Position numbers and translations under genes: made by a program
The notes under the pieces: generated by a model
Seen by the model: the letters and a program-made list of their open reading frames with translations, nothing else
The model's database searches: none
What the model was told of the DNA's origin: nothing
In this document: in pieces, positions 7,669 to 16,224 of the stretch
Layout: the number at the start of each line of letters is the position of its first letter
How positions within the stretch are numbered: the first letter of the stretch is position 1
NCBI GenBank assembly: GCA_020724465.1
Contig: DYGX01000009.1
Span: 62,001-126,000 of the forward strand
Source: Thermoflexus sp.
GTDB lineage: Bacteria > Chloroflexota > Anaerolineae > Aggregatilineales > Aggregatilineaceae
Direction of reading: 5' to 3'
Length of the DNA stretch: 64,000 nucleotides

Positions 7669-8973
7669 ATGCTAAAACGTATACTCGGCCTGGCCCTGAT
7701 CGCCATTCTGGCCCTTGGCTTGCTGCCGACCGTCCGCGCGCAGGAAGGCGAGAACATCTGCGGCACCGACGAGGAAGCAACCGTTACGTTCATCGCAGGG
7801 ACCGTCGGCTCGGAGCATGAAGTTGCCGTGACCTTGGGCAACAACTTCATGGAAGTGTGCCCGAATATTACCGTGAATGTGGTTGAGCGCCCGACGAGCA
7901 CAACCGAGACGCTGGCGCAGTATCAGCAGTTTTTCGAAGCCCAGAGCGGCGAGCTTGACGTCTTTCAGATCGATGTTGCCTGGCCCGGCTTGGTTGCCGA
8001 GCACGTCCTGGATATGAACGAGTATCTCGACGAGGAATTCCTCAGCCAGTTCTATCCCGGCGTGCTCGCGGGCTACACCGTGCAGGGACGTCTGGCCGCA
8101 GTGCCCTGGTTCGCCGGTGCGGGAATGCTGTACTATCGCACTGATCTGCTGGAGAAATACGGCCTCGAAGTGCCCCAGACCTGGGATGAACTGTATACCG
8201 CGGCCAAGACCATTCAGGACGGCGAGCGCGAGACCAACCCCGACTTCTGGGGCTTCGTCTTCCAGGGCCATGCATACGAGGGCCTGACCTGCGACGCGCT
8301 GGAGTGGCAGGCGTCGTATGACGGCGGCGTGATCATCACGCCGGACGGCGTGGTCGATGTCAACAACCCCAACGCGATCGAGATCTTCGATAAGGTCGCG
8401 TCCTGGGTGGGCGACATCGTGCCCGAAGCCGTGCTGACCTTCCAGGAAGAGGATGCGCGTGCGGTCTGGCAGGCGGGCAACGCGGCCTTCATGCGCAACT
8501 GGGGCTATGCCTACACGCTCGGCCAGGCGGACGACAGCGTGATCAAGGACAAGTTCGACGTCGGCCCGCTGCCCGGCAAGGAACCCGGCATGAGCGCGGC
8601 GACCCTGGGCGGCTGGGGCCTGTCCGTCTCGAAGTACTCGGACAACGTCGATGCGGCGGTGGCCTTCGTCAAGTGGGTGACCAGCATTGATCAGCAAGTC
8701 TGGTTCACGCTGCAGCGCAGCGAGCAGCCGGTTCAGCCTGCCGTCTACGACGCGCCGGAGATCCAGGAACAGCTTCCGTTCATCCTGGCCTTCAAGGACG
8801 TCCTGAACTTTGCCACCCCGCGGCCCACAGCCGTCGCTGGCGAGCAGTATGCCCGCGTGTCCGAGCTGTACTACACCGCCGTGCATGATGTGCTGGCGGG
8901 CAGCAAGGACGCCGCGACTGCCATGGCGGACCTTGAGCTGGCGCTGGCGGATCTGGGATTCGAGCTACCCTAA
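7669..8973 (+). CDS. Extracellular sugar-binding protein (ABC importer, family 1)
   Basis: A 434-residue solute-binding protein. Residues 1-25 form a Sec signal peptide ending in VRAQ. The mature part has the family-1 carbohydrate-binding pattern: EVAVTLGNNFMEVCPNITVNVVERPTS, then the conserved DVFQIDVAWPGLVAE and GRLAAVPWFAGAGMLYYRTDLLEKYG. No lipobox is present, so retention at the surface is unclear. AAAAGGAGAGA lies 6-10 nt upstream of ATG. It is followed by two permeases; no ATPase is encoded, so a shared MsmX/UgpC-like ATPase elsewhere is expected. The closest functional type is trehalose/maltose (ThuE-like) binding, by overall resemblance only. Confidence 0.9.
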   Translation: MLKRILGLALIAILALGLLPTVRAQEGENICGTDEEATVTFIAGTVGSEHEVAVTLGNNFMEVCPNITVNVVERPTSTTETLAQYQQFFEAQSGELDVFQIDVAWPGLVAEHVLDMNEYLDEEFLSQFYPGVLAGYTVQGRLAAVPWFAGAGMLYYRTDLLEKYGLEVPQTWDELYTAAKTIQDGERETNPDFWGFVFQGHAYEGLTCDALEWQASYDGGVIITPDGVVDVNNPNAIEIFDKVASWVGDIVPEAVLTFQEEDARAVWQAGNAAFMRNWGYAYTLGQADDSVIKDKFDVGPLPGKEPGMSAATLGGWGLSVSKYSDNVDAAVAFVKWVTSIDQQVWFTLQRSEQPVQPAVYDAPEIQEQLPFILAFKDVLNFATPRPTAVAGEQYARVSELYYTAVHDVLAGSKDAATAMADLELALADLGFELP

Positions 8974-9002
8974 CAGCCCGATCCCACACGCGTTGATAGC
9001 TG

Positions 9003-9028: not shown

Positions 9029-9099
9029 TTCGCATATGGGGCACATCATTCATAGTGATCACCCCTAATTAGTTTTTGGGGCAATCAAGGGGGTGCTTG

Positions 9100-11013
9100 A
9101 TGACACTGATTCCACCAGGTGGCACGCGCCGGCGCCCAACCGAACAGGAAGCTATCTCGCTCGAACTGGTGAGCGGTCTGTTGATGCTCATAGGGTTTTT
9201 CGCGTTTGCTTACCTGTTCTACGCAATCGCCACCAACGCCGATATCAAGGAAGCCACACAGGGGCCTGAGGTTCCCGGGATTGGTCTGAACGTGACCCTG
9301 GTAGAGCCGGACGAGCCAGAGCCACCCTACTTTGAACTGCATCCTATCGCGGGGGGCACAGCCAGCACTACAGGCATCCGGGCGGGCGACCGGCTCGCCA
9401 AGATCGACGGCGAGGACGCCACACCCGAGACAATGACATTGGAGCAGGTGCGCGCGCGCCTCGCCGAAGCGGACGTTTCGCTGGCCGATGACGACTTCGA
9501 AATCACGCTGGAATTTCTGCGGCCATTGCCCGACGGCAGCCTGAGGGCGGAAACCCGCGTCGTGCCGAAGAACGTCCCGCCGACGACAACCATCGCCTAC
9601 CTCAAGAGCTTTGGGTTTGTCGTGCCATTGCTGCTCGTTCTGCTCGGCATCTTCCTGATCCGGCTTGGCACGCGGCTGCGCCAGTACGATGTGGTCGCGG
9701 CTCGCTGGGCGCTGGTCGCGCTGCTCTGGCTGATGATCGGGCTGGCTGTGGTAGCGCTGTGGTCCTTTTGGGTGAGCGGGAAGGGCGGCCTAGTTACCAA
9801 AGAGCCGTTCAACTATGGCAAAGCAGTGCGTGGCGCCGTGCCTGTTCTGATCGCCATTATCCCGCTGGCGATCGCGTACAAGTGGCTCGGAACGGTGATC
9901 GACGAACTGCTCGTCGGCGAGGAGTCACTCACCTCGCGCAACACGCGGTTCGCGTGGACGCTGCTGGTGCCGACTCTGGTCGTGCTGGCATTGGTCGCGG
10001 CGCGGCCCCTGGAGCAGACGTTCATCAAGAGCCTGACAGACGACCAGTTCGGCACCAACCGGCCAGCGCGCTTCGTCGGCCTGAGAAACTACGCCAACCT
10101 GATCAGCTTCAAGTTCGCGCTCATCGAGTGCCGCCTCGACGACAGCGGCGAGTGCGCGCGCACGCCGAACCAAAGCATCATCTGGGAACGATCGAAAGCC
10201 GAAGAAGAGGAAGCGGAGAAGCTGAGAAGCCTCACCAGTGCCGAGCGACGCAGATACGTGCGCTATCAGGAAGCGGCGACCTGGCGTCTGCCGAACAGCA
10301 CTAAAGGCATCCGCCTGCTGGGCAAAGACCCCACGTTTCTCAAGTCCGTGGGCAACACGCTTCGCTTTACCGTTTCCTCGGTCACTCTGGAGCTGGTGCT
10401 GGGGCTGCTCATCGCGCTGGTCGTTAACTCCGGTTTCCGCGGGCGCGGCCTGATGCGGGCGGCGATGCTGGTCCCCTGGGCGATCCCGACAGTCGTCTCA
10501 GCCGTGCTGTGGCAGGCGATGATGCGCCCGGACCAGACCGGCATCCTCAACAAGCTGCTGCTCGACCTGGGGCTGATCGCCGGCCCCAAGCAGTGGCTGG
10601 CGGCGACCGGCCCCTGGATGAACTCCATTGTGGCGATCGATGTCTGGAAGACGACGCCGTTTATGGCGTTGCTGCTGCTGGCCGGTCTGCAGGTGATCCC
10701 TAGCGACCTGTACGAAGCGGCGGCTGTCGATGGCGCGTCCAAGCTGCGGCAGTTTTTCTCGATCACCCTTCCTCTGCTGCGCCCCACCATCGCTGTCGCG
10801 CTGATCTTCCGCACGCTGGACGCGCTGCGCGCGTTCGATGTGTTCCAGGTGCTGCTCGATACAACGCGCCCGTCGATGGCTGCCTACAACTACAACACGC
10901 TGGTGCTGAACCGGATGGACGGGTACGCATCCACGGTTGGGGTGATGATCTTCATCCTGATCTTCATCTTCACGGTGCTGTACGTTCGATTTGTGAGGAT
11001 TGAACAAGAATGA
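9100..11013 (+). CDS. MalF-type sugar permease with extra N-terminal membrane and PDZ-like region
   Basis: A 637-residue protein, about twice the usual MalF/UgpA size. The C-terminal part (from about residue 285) is an ordinary permease: first helix WTLLVPTLVVLALVAARPLEQTF, then FVGLRNYANLI, a ~100-residue outside loop with a charged helix, and the EAA loop YEAAAVDGASKLRQFFSITLPLL near residue 538. The first 285 residues are unusual: a helix at about 23-43, a soluble PDZ-like stretch at about 76-157 containing GGTASTTGIRAGDRLAKIDGED (GxRxGDxxxxIDG signature), and three more helices at about 173-188, 203-225 and 246-265. ATG 9100 is preceded by AAGGGGG at good spacing. It overlaps the next permease by 4 bp. 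The PDZ assignment is from motif only. Confidence 0.85.
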   Translation: MTLIPPGGTRRRPTEQEAISLELVSGLLMLIGFFAFAYLFYAIATNADIKEATQGPEVPGIGLNVTLVEPDEPEPPYFELHPIAGGTASTTGIRAGDRLAKIDGEDATPETMTLEQVRARLAEADVSLADDDFEITLEFLRPLPDGSLRAETRVVPKNVPPTTTIAYLKSFGFVVPLLLVLLGIFLIRLGTRLRQYDVVAARWALVALLWLMIGLAVVALWSFWVSGKGGLVTKEPFNYGKAVRGAVPVLIAIIPLAIAYKWLGTVIDELLVGEESLTSRNTRFAWTLLVPTLVVLALVAARPLEQTFIKSLTDDQFGTNRPARFVGLRNYANLISFKFALIECRLDDSGECARTPNQSIIWERSKAEEEEAEKLRSLTSAERRRYVRYQEAATWRLPNSTKGIRLLGKDPTFLKSVGNTLRFTVSSVTLELVLGLLIALVVNSGFRGRGLMRAAMLVPWAIPTVVSAVLWQAMMRPDQTGILNKLLLDLGLIAGPKQWLAATGPWMNSIVAIDVWKTTPFMALLLLAGLQVIPSDLYEAAAVDGASKLRQFFSITLPLLRPTIAVALIFRTLDALRAFDVFQVLLDTTRPSMAAYNYNTLVLNRMDGYASTVGVMIFILIFIFTVLYVRFVRIEQE

Positions 11014-11870
11014 GCGGGCGACCAATTTCACGCAGAGAAGTCAGCCATCTGCTGACACGGGCGCTGTTCTGGCTGGTGATCATCCTCGTTGCGCTCTACA
11101 CCATGCTGCCGTTTGCCTATGCGATCAGCATCTCGTTTCGCACCAACGCCCAGGTCCTGGTCACCGCGCGCTACCTGCCGGAAGACCCGCAGCTCACCAA
11201 CTATCAGAACCTGCTGAGCGACAGAAACTTCATGCGAACCATGCTGAACTCGTCGGTCGTCGCGTCGGTGACGGTGTTGCTGGCACTCGTGGTGGGGTCG
11301 TTCGCCGCCTATGCCCTGGGGCGCGTACAGTTTCGCGGGCGGATGGTCGTGCTGTACCTGGTGCTGGCGATGACCATGTTCCCGCAGATTTCGATCCTGT
11401 CGGGGTTATTCGCCATCGTCAACGATCTGGGCATCTACGGCTCGACGGCGGCCCTGATGTTCACCTATCCGATTTTTACGCTGCCGTTCACGGTGTGGGT
11501 GCTGACGTCGTTCTTCCAGGGATTGCCTCCGGAAATCGAGCAGGCGGCGCTGGTCGACGGCGCCACCCCGTTTCAGACCTTCTGGCGGATTCTCGTGCCG
11601 CTGACCGCCCCCGCGCTGGTCACAACCGGGCTGCTGGCGTTCATCGCAGCCTGGAACGAATACCTGTTCGCGCTCACGTTCACGCTGGTGAACAAGAGCG
11701 CCCAGACCGTGCCGGTTGCCATCGCCAACTTTGCCGGGTATAGCTATGAGGTCCCGGTTGCGGATCGAGTCGCGGGCGCGGTGGTGGTGACAGTCCCGGT
11801 GCTAGTGCTGGTGCTCATCTTCCAGCGCCGCATCATCGAGGGGCTGACGGCCGGGGCGGTCAAGGGATAG
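11010..11870 (+). CDS. MalG-type sugar permease
   Basis: A 286-residue inner-membrane permease of normal length with six predicted helices. The EAA loop is EIEQAALVDGATPFQTFWRILVPL, and the family's start (FAYAISISFRTNAQVL) and end (FQRRIIEGLTAGAVKG) are intact. Its ATG overlaps the stop of the preceding permease (ATGA), indicating translational coupling and a heterodimeric channel with it. Confidence 0.92.
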   Translation: MSGRPISRREVSHLLTRALFWLVIILVALYTMLPFAYAISISFRTNAQVLVTARYLPEDPQLTNYQNLLSDRNFMRTMLNSSVVASVTVLLALVVGSFAAYALGRVQFRGRMVVLYLVLAMTMFPQISILSGLFAIVNDLGIYGSTAALMFTYPIFTLPFTVWVLTSFFQGLPPEIEQAALVDGATPFQTFWRILVPLTAPALVTTGLLAFIAAWNEYLFALTFTLVNKSAQTVPVAIANFAGYSYEVPVADRVAGAVVVTVPVLVLVLIFQRRIIEGLTAGAVKG

Positions 11871-14646: not shown

Positions 14647-16224
14647 TTACTTTTCCACCCCGGTCAGGATCACGCCACGCATGAACACACGCTGCGCCAG
14701 GAAGAACAGCACCACCGGGATCACCAGGCCCATCAGCGCGGTCGCCTGGATCAGGTGCGGCTGCTGGTCGAAGACGAAGTTGAAGATCTGGATGCCCACC
14801 GACAAGGGGGCGATCTTCGGATTGCTCAAGGTGTAGATCAGGGGTTCAAAGTAGTCGTTCCAGGCAAAGACGAAGTGGAACAGACTCACCGCGACGATCG
14901 CCGGCCACGCCTGCGGGATGATCACCGAGCGCAGGATGCGGAACGGCCCTGCGCCGTCAATCATCGCCGCCTCGTCCAGCTCGATCGGCAGCGTGCTGAA
15001 ATACTGGCGCAAGAGCAGGACGTTGTAGGCGTTCGCGAAGAAGTGCGGCACGATCAGCGGCAGCCAAGTTCCCGTCCAGCCCAGCACCTGCGAAAACACG
15101 AAGTAGGTGGGGACCAGGGTCACCTGCTTGGGCAGGATGATAGTCGAGATCAGGATCATGAACAGCACGTTCTTGTACGGGATCGGGAAGCGCGTAAACG
15201 CATAGGCGACCAGCGTGCAGGAAATGACCGTGCCGATCATGCCCAGAATCGCGATCATCAGCGTGTTGAAGAGCAGCCGCGGGAAGCCCACTTCGCGCCA
15301 GGCATAGGAGAAGTTCTCCCACTGCGGATCAAACCGCTTCACCGGCTTGGCGGTGGGCTGTTGCTGATTGGCAAACGGCTGCTCGGACCAGGCCAGAATA
15401 CCCGCATCCAGATTCTCCGGGTCGATAAAGTAGGTTTCCGTCTGGCCGGGCACGCCCTGCCGCACCATCGCCCAGCGCTGCGTTCCGCCATCCGGCGCGG
15501 GCACCTCATAGAGCGGATATTCCGCGCCGGGCTGCAGAACCACCTCGGGAATTGTCTTGCCCCGGTAGGTATAGAGCACTTCTTTTTCAAGCGCCGTCGC
15601 CTCGGCGAGATCGCCCTGCCAGGTCACAATCCCGGACTCGGGGGCGGCGGGGTCGAGGAAGTAATGCGTGTCCCCTTCAGACTTGAACAGCGCCAGCCGT
15701 TTCACGCCCCCGTCAAGCGGGATGTCATACAGCGGGTACGGTGTGCCGCGCACCACCCCTTCTTCCCGGTAGCCCGTTCCCACATACATGAATGTCTCCG
15801 GCTCGGTCAGCGGCTCGATGGTCGCCGGGTCGCCCGTCCACTCGATGACGCCTCCGGCCACGTTCGCCGGATCCAGAAAGACGACCATATCATCCAGGGT
15901 GGCGATCAGCGCCCATTCCCGCCAGATGCCCTGCTCGTCCGGAACGCGGTAAAGCGGGTAGCGGCTCCCAGTACGCACGCTCCACTCGGGATATTCCTCG
16001 CCATCATAGCGGTACATCACCGGCGACATCGGCAAGATGCTCTTCTCGGTGATCTGGGGCTTGTTCTTGATAGCGGTCGTCGCCATGTACCCGAATGGGG
16101 ACAGATAGGCGATCAGGAGCATAATCGTAAACATCAGCAGGAGCGCGCTGAGGCCAAGATTCCGGTAGCGGGCGACGATCTGCTTGCTGCCCCAGAGTTT
16201 GCGTTTGTGCGTGGAATCAGCCAT
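14647..16224 (-). CDS. MalG-type sugar permease with a threefold-repeated extracytoplasmic insertion
   Basis: A 525-residue permease against about 280 for normal MalG. Helix 1 (about 25-45) and the rest of the channel (from about 315; EAA loop ELDEAAMIDGAGPFRILRSVIIP) are conventional. Between them lies about 240 extra residues containing three related units, at about 71-129, 147-202 and 218-279. Each carries YPLYxVP, then a hydrophobic strand, a (F/Y)(L/I)DP turn and ends G(V/I)xxW. In MalG topology this is the first loop on the outer face, so the insertion should face the binding protein. It lies 5 bp after the partner permease gene. Confidence 0.9.
   Translation of the reverse strand: MADSTHKRKLWGSKQIVARYRNLGLSALLLMFTIMLLIAYLSPFGYMATTAIKNKPQITEKSILPMSPVMYRYDGEEYPEWSVRTGSRYPLYRVPDEQGIWREWALIATLDDMVVFLDPANVAGGVIEWTGDPATIEPLTEPETFMYVGTGYREEGVVRGTPYPLYDIPLDGGVKRLALFKSEGDTHYFLDPAAPESGIVTWQGDLAEATALEKEVLYTYRGKTIPEVVLQPGAEYPLYEVPAPDGGTQRWAMVRQGVPGQTETYFIDPENLDAGILAWSEQPFANQQQPTAKPVKRFDPQWENFSYAWREVGFPRLLFNTLMIAILGMIGTVISCTLVAYAFTRFPIPYKNVLFMILISTIILPKQVTLVPTYFVFSQVLGWTGTWLPLIVPHFFANAYNVLLLRQYFSTLPIELDEAAMIDGAGPFRILRSVIIPQAWPAIVAVSLFHFVFAWNDYFEPLIYTLSNPKIAPLSVGIQIFNFVFDQQPHLIQATALMGLVIPVVLFFLAQRVFMRGVILTGVEK

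Follow-up and report, generated by a model that had tools for sequence, protein, structure and literature searches.

A PDZ domain in the N-terminal extension of a MalF-type importer permease conserved in the Aggregatilineales, and a candidate ligand in its substrate-binding protein

Why should the permease of an ABC importer carry a PDZ domain? The question is raised by a 64,000-nucleotide stretch of DNA from Thermoflexus sp. (GenBank assembly GCA_020724465.1, contig DYGX01000009.1, positions 62,001 to 126,000 of the forward strand), referred to here as the window. A preliminary description of this DNA proposed that a PDZ-like domain and additional membrane helices are fused to the N-terminus of a MalF-type permease, a combination with which it was not familiar. 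Is the domain truly a PDZ domain, is the fusion conserved, and what might such a domain bind? Here we investigate the permease, its operon and its relatives in other genomes.

The genes of the operon lie in the order substrate-binding protein (SBP), MalF-type permease with the PDZ domain, MalG-type permease, all on the forward strand, and the SBP and the second permease are kept at orthologous loci:

7669..8973, + strand, SBP of the operon (SBP_bac_1, 127.4 bits), without a lipobox
9100..11013, + strand, MalF-type permease with PDZ, 637 aa, ATG start
10393..10995, + strand, BPD_transp_1 core of this permease, residues 432-632; its EAA loop begins near 10714
11010..11870, + strand, MalG-type partner permease, 286 aa, 55.6 bits, without PDZ

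The ATG at 9100 was preferred over a TTG at 9076 as the start of the MalF-type gene because a start of MTLIPP is common to the orthologues. Two features identify the 637-aa protein as a type I ABC importer permease, a BPD_transp_1 score of 71.5 bits against a cut-off of 26.4 and the EAA loop EAAAVDGASKLRQFFSITLPLLRP, which can be read directly in the sequence. With the NCBIfam MalF equivalog it scores 76.1 bits, below the cut-off of 392 bits, and is therefore MalF-type rather than a MalF orthologue in the strict E. coli sense. We take it to be the MalF-type component of a sugar importer of type I (CUT1-like). Its substrate is indicated neither by NCBIfam, which holds no assignment above cut-off for this importer, nor by the neighbouring genes, since at the PDZ-bearing loci a GH3 gene and a dehydrogenase gene are conserved no further than the sister genome.

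The first 287 residues of the permease form an extension ahead of the canonical core, with a soluble domain (residues 57-160) in the loop between the first and second of four helices:

9142..9234, + strand, TM1 of the extension, residues 15-45 (AlphaFold helix 15-45; hydropathy 16-49)
9268..9579, + strand, PDZ domain, residues 57-160 (AlphaFold, profile, Foldseek/VIA), extracytoplasmic by predicted topology
9583..9903, + strand, TM2-TM4 of the extension, residues 162-268 (AlphaFold, hydropathy), retained in PDZ-less relatives

The extra membrane helices around the domain are thus present as proposed, four segments preceding the permease core. Because helices counted back from the cytoplasmic EAA loop place the TM1-TM2 loop outside the cytoplasm, the PDZ domain is predicted to be displayed at the outer surface of the membrane. 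The arginine-rich N-terminus (GGTRRR) is consistent with this orientation. Soluble parts were also seen in other permeases of this genome. In the window, a 525-aa MalG-type permease (14647-16224, - strand) carries, after its first helix and before its second, a long soluble insert built of similar repeats (YPLYxVP...), to which there was no Pfam match. On contig C49, the outer loop of a MalF-type permease (L177, a 498-aa frame) appears by eye to consist of two SH3-like repeats (LRAEP...VGELxRGT).

Several lines of evidence converge on the identity of the soluble domain. The AlphaFold model (mean pLDDT 81.5) gives it a PDZ fold. The structures matched by residues 59-159 of the model in VIA are PDZ domains throughout, Ctp-type domains leading (best Z 12.9, with an rmsd of 2.0 across 84 residues) and HtrA-type domains behind. 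Foldseek matched CtpA at an E value of 3.9e-4, and a profile built from 16 orthologues found the PDZ domain of the D1 C-terminal processing protease (D1P) at 2.3e-6, with GIGL aligned to GVGL. The Pfam PDZ_6 score of the isolated window fragment (22.5 bits, E 9.8e-5) is below the 27-bit cut-off, as is that of one orthologue (L067, 16.5 bits); others exceed it (L062, 33.7; L068, 53.6; another, 41.8 bits). Taken together, the model and the profiles indicate that residues 57-160 are a genuine PDZ domain, as the preliminary description had supposed. The affinity to HtrA and RseP that it proposed was wrong in detail, since the closest solved domains are those of the Ctp/S41 proteases (CtpA, CtpB, D1P), which share the fold, the circularly permuted strand order and the GxG loop. 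The PDZ domains of HtrA/Deg and RseP have the same fold at lower scores and are not the nearest relatives.

The site at which a PDZ domain of this type would hold a peptide end can also be located:

9271..9288, + strand, carboxylate-binding (GxG) loop VPGIGL, residues 58-63 (V58-P59-G60-I61-G62-L63), aligned with GVGL of D1P
9373..9417, + strand, GIRAGDRLAKIDGED, residues 92-106, the conserved GxxGD turn and next strand of the PDZ domain

The second of these, with its GIRAGD turn, had been mistaken for the carboxylate loop. In the true loop, of the GxG type, G60 and G62 are invariant among 16 sequences, and its mean conservation is 0.88 compared with 0.48 for the whole PDZ, which makes it the most conserved segment of the domain. 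This suggests that the PDZ still binds a ligand, although the loop glycines may be kept for folding.

The PDZ form of the MalF-type permease is present in 19 of 154 genomes of the Aggregatilineales, a sparsely studied order of the Chloroflexota. The extension is conserved in the orthologues, and a local fusion or assembly error, which its absence from them would have suggested, has accordingly been ruled out. Contigs matching elsewhere are titled Anaerolineae or Aggregatilineales; in a sample of 400 genomes from the phylum, no member outside the Aggregatilineales had a match spanning the extension, the weak partial matches reaching E 2e-5 at best. Two PDZ copies were counted in each of two orthologues (L068 and L162), by eye and by Pfam, and three by eye in L069, of which Pfam calls one. 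The MalG-type partner of this three-PDZ permease is a 720-aa frame (L069:5244-7406, - strand) rather than the usual 286 aa. At another locus the SBP gene and the MalG gene each fall into two frames (L061:4794-6096 and 8147-9002), through frameshifts or sequencing errors. The sister group is made up of 38 permeases with the same four helices, in which TM1 and TM2 are joined by a short linker and there is no PDZ. The PDZ-bearing permeases form one clade (100/99), and the tree leaves gain versus loss of the domain undirected. Could the domain be a neutral passenger, or the fusion an artefact after all? The sub-threshold Pfam score of the window protein would fit such a view, which is nonetheless highly improbable given the 19 genomes in five family-level groups, an extension identity of 56-93% among single-PDZ members, the invariant loop glycines and a second family of PDZ-permeases.

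This second family came to light in a PDZ_6 scan of the source genome, through an open frame of 587 aa in contig C44 (L172:4183-5790, about 152682-154289). Read from its likely ATG, the frame encodes a 535-aa MalG-type permease with PDZ_2 (42.8 bits) and BPD_transp_1 (50.8 bits) both above cut-off, in an operon of the order SBP-MalF-MalG(PDZ)-ATPase. Here too the extension contributes four helices, of which one was assigned by eye; the PDZ is in the loop from the third to the fourth and is outside by predicted topology. This form was counted in 49 of the 154 Aggregatilineales genomes, and its PDZ was read directly in 21 aligned sequences, a subset of that count. Most orthologous MalGs in other orders of the Anaerolineae measure about 300 aa, and the extension is absent from them; matches outside the Aggregatilineales cover the core end only. 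The PDZ of the MalG family is nearer to HtrA-type domains. Because the subunit, the loop and the PDZ likeness all differ, the sequences argue for separate gains of the PDZ on MalF and on MalG.

The PDZ-permease architecture is solid, conserved and found in two permease families, and it is new in that there is no prior report in the literature searched, as the preliminary description had anticipated. Searches for PDZ with ABC importers or with MalF returned nothing relevant, and the main text of a survey of microbial PDZ domains makes no mention of transporters or permeases (PMC6411480). The Ctp/S41, HtrA/Deg and RseP domains belong to proteases; the window permease has no protease domain, and its PDZ sits in a transmembrane loop of an ABC importer. 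GspC/EpsC of type II secretion, also a membrane protein and no protease, likewise exposes a PDZ outside the cytoplasm, that of EpsC being among the fold matches. It is a different fusion, in secretion machinery, whereas the window protein is part of an importer.

What would the domain bind? A candidate lies immediately upstream:

8956..8970, + strand, C-terminal tail GFELP of the SBP, proposed PDZ ligand (tail comparison across operons)

The SBP ends in [FY]x[LFA]P followed by 0-3 residues in all 19 PDZ-bearing operons. Among PDZ-less operons a like tail was found in 1 of 35, and the others end differently. Within the source genome, the operon's own SBP is the only one of 30 with a GFELP-type tail. 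At equal body identity above 0.6, tails are more alike between SBPs of PDZ-bearing operons than between those of PDZ-less ones; for pairs with body identities of 0.70-0.85, identity over the final six residues is 86% in the former and 43% in the latter. In addition, the C-termini of the permeases are cytoplasmic by predicted topology, so that, of the importer subunits, the SBP alone offers a C-terminus outside the cytoplasm. A lipobox is present in only 1 of the 30 SBP_bac_1 proteins of the genome, and a tether would therefore be useful; in most of these proteins (L113-L142) the signal peptide ends at AxAQ. Together with the PDZ fold, its outside topology and the conserved carboxylate loop, these observations are a circumstantial pointer to the SBP as partner. 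The preliminary description had suggested that the PDZ could couple importer assembly or stability to another protein, and to factors of that kind they do not point.

The PDZ may thus act as a docking arm with which the transporter retains a partner outside the cytoplasm. The likeliest partner would be the operon's own SBP, gripped at the C-terminal tail G[FY]x[LF]P, and such docking would raise the local concentration of an SBP that has no lipid anchor. GlnPQ and OpuA, described as having substrate-binding domains fused to their permeases (PMC8025302, PMC11065425), would serve the same purpose of keeping the SBP at the transporter if the docking idea is right; as described there their link is covalent, and here it would be non-covalent, through recognition of a tail. 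We put forward docking by the PDZ, with the SBP tail as foremost candidate, as a possibility that falls short of an even chance.

Several findings weigh against it. The PDZ-bearing permeases and the SBPs of their operons each form one clade, PDZ and tail mapping to the same single branch, so that their association counts as a single event. The single like tail in a PDZ-less operon (L164, GFTVPGE) stands without any PDZ to bind it. In a read-through chain from L067, in which the tail, an intergenic linker and the PDZ are continuous, AlphaFold gave the tail as coil, though this chain has no free carboxylate and the output was of secondary structure only, so that the result counts neither for nor against docking. 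A covariation of the tail end with PDZ residue 59 was dropped as post hoc and underpowered.

Since the evidence for the SBP tail rests on one event, another extracytoplasmic protein with a matching C-terminus might be docked instead, such as a protease of the HtrA or Ctp type, a chaperone, a glycoside hydrolase at the surface or an envelope component, with control of importer turnover or placement as the result. The conserved carboxylate-binding loop would suit such a partner, and bacterial PDZ domains are, according to the survey text, mostly linked to proteases (PMC6411480). Among the genes tested at the PDZ-bearing loci, however, the only conserved neighbours are the SBP and MalG, and we regard a different partner as somewhat unlikely.

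Nor need the domain bind a peptide end at all. The MalF-type permease of E. coli also has an extracytoplasmic part, the periplasmic P2 loop, which contacts MalE. Daus et al. are said to have reported in 2009 that this interaction lasts throughout the transport cycle. The P2 loop is no PDZ and is found between helices further along the chain, whereas the window PDZ belongs to an added N-terminal extension. The PDZ could still serve in a like manner as a structural scaffold touching the SBP body or the permease, the SBP tail being unrelated. Other importers of the same genome do have extracytoplasmic permease inserts, and the very last residues of the SBP vary in the PDZ-bearing operons (P, E, Q, EE, EME), which is unexpected under classical PDZ recognition and counts against docking of the tail. 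Yet the most conserved segment of the domain is its carboxylate-binding loop, for which a mere spacer would have no need unless the glycines serve folding. A scaffold of this kind is, in our estimate, somewhat unlikely, to the same degree as a different partner.

Does tail docking extend to the second family? There the SBP C-terminus (LQNELGDNVIIR-like; L211-L230 and L261-L280) is sharply conserved whether or not MalG has a PDZ. The tail, NE[LVI][GP]D-x-I-x-[IV]-R-like (NELGDNVIIR-like), is kept in PDZ-bearing and PDZ-less operons alike, and for this reason the SBP tail was rejected as a rule that would hold for all PDZ importers. This also tells against tail docking in the MalF family, since it means that such tails can persist on other grounds, packing in the SBP fold being one example. 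The broader proposal, that importers of this order tether unanchored SBPs by their C-terminal tails through permease PDZ arms which arose on the MalF subunit of one importer and the MalG subunit of a second, is on balance unlikely.

The PDZ domains known in bacteria belong mostly to proteases and secretion. Carried by ABC importer permeases of two families, a PDZ would be a peptide-recognition link from the transporter to its partners. The PDZ-permeases also raise the question of what holds an SBP without a lipid anchor at its importer. If the SBP tail is indeed what the PDZ grips, these bacteria would have a third way to hold an SBP, non-covalent and peptide-coded, beside lipid anchors and direct fusion.
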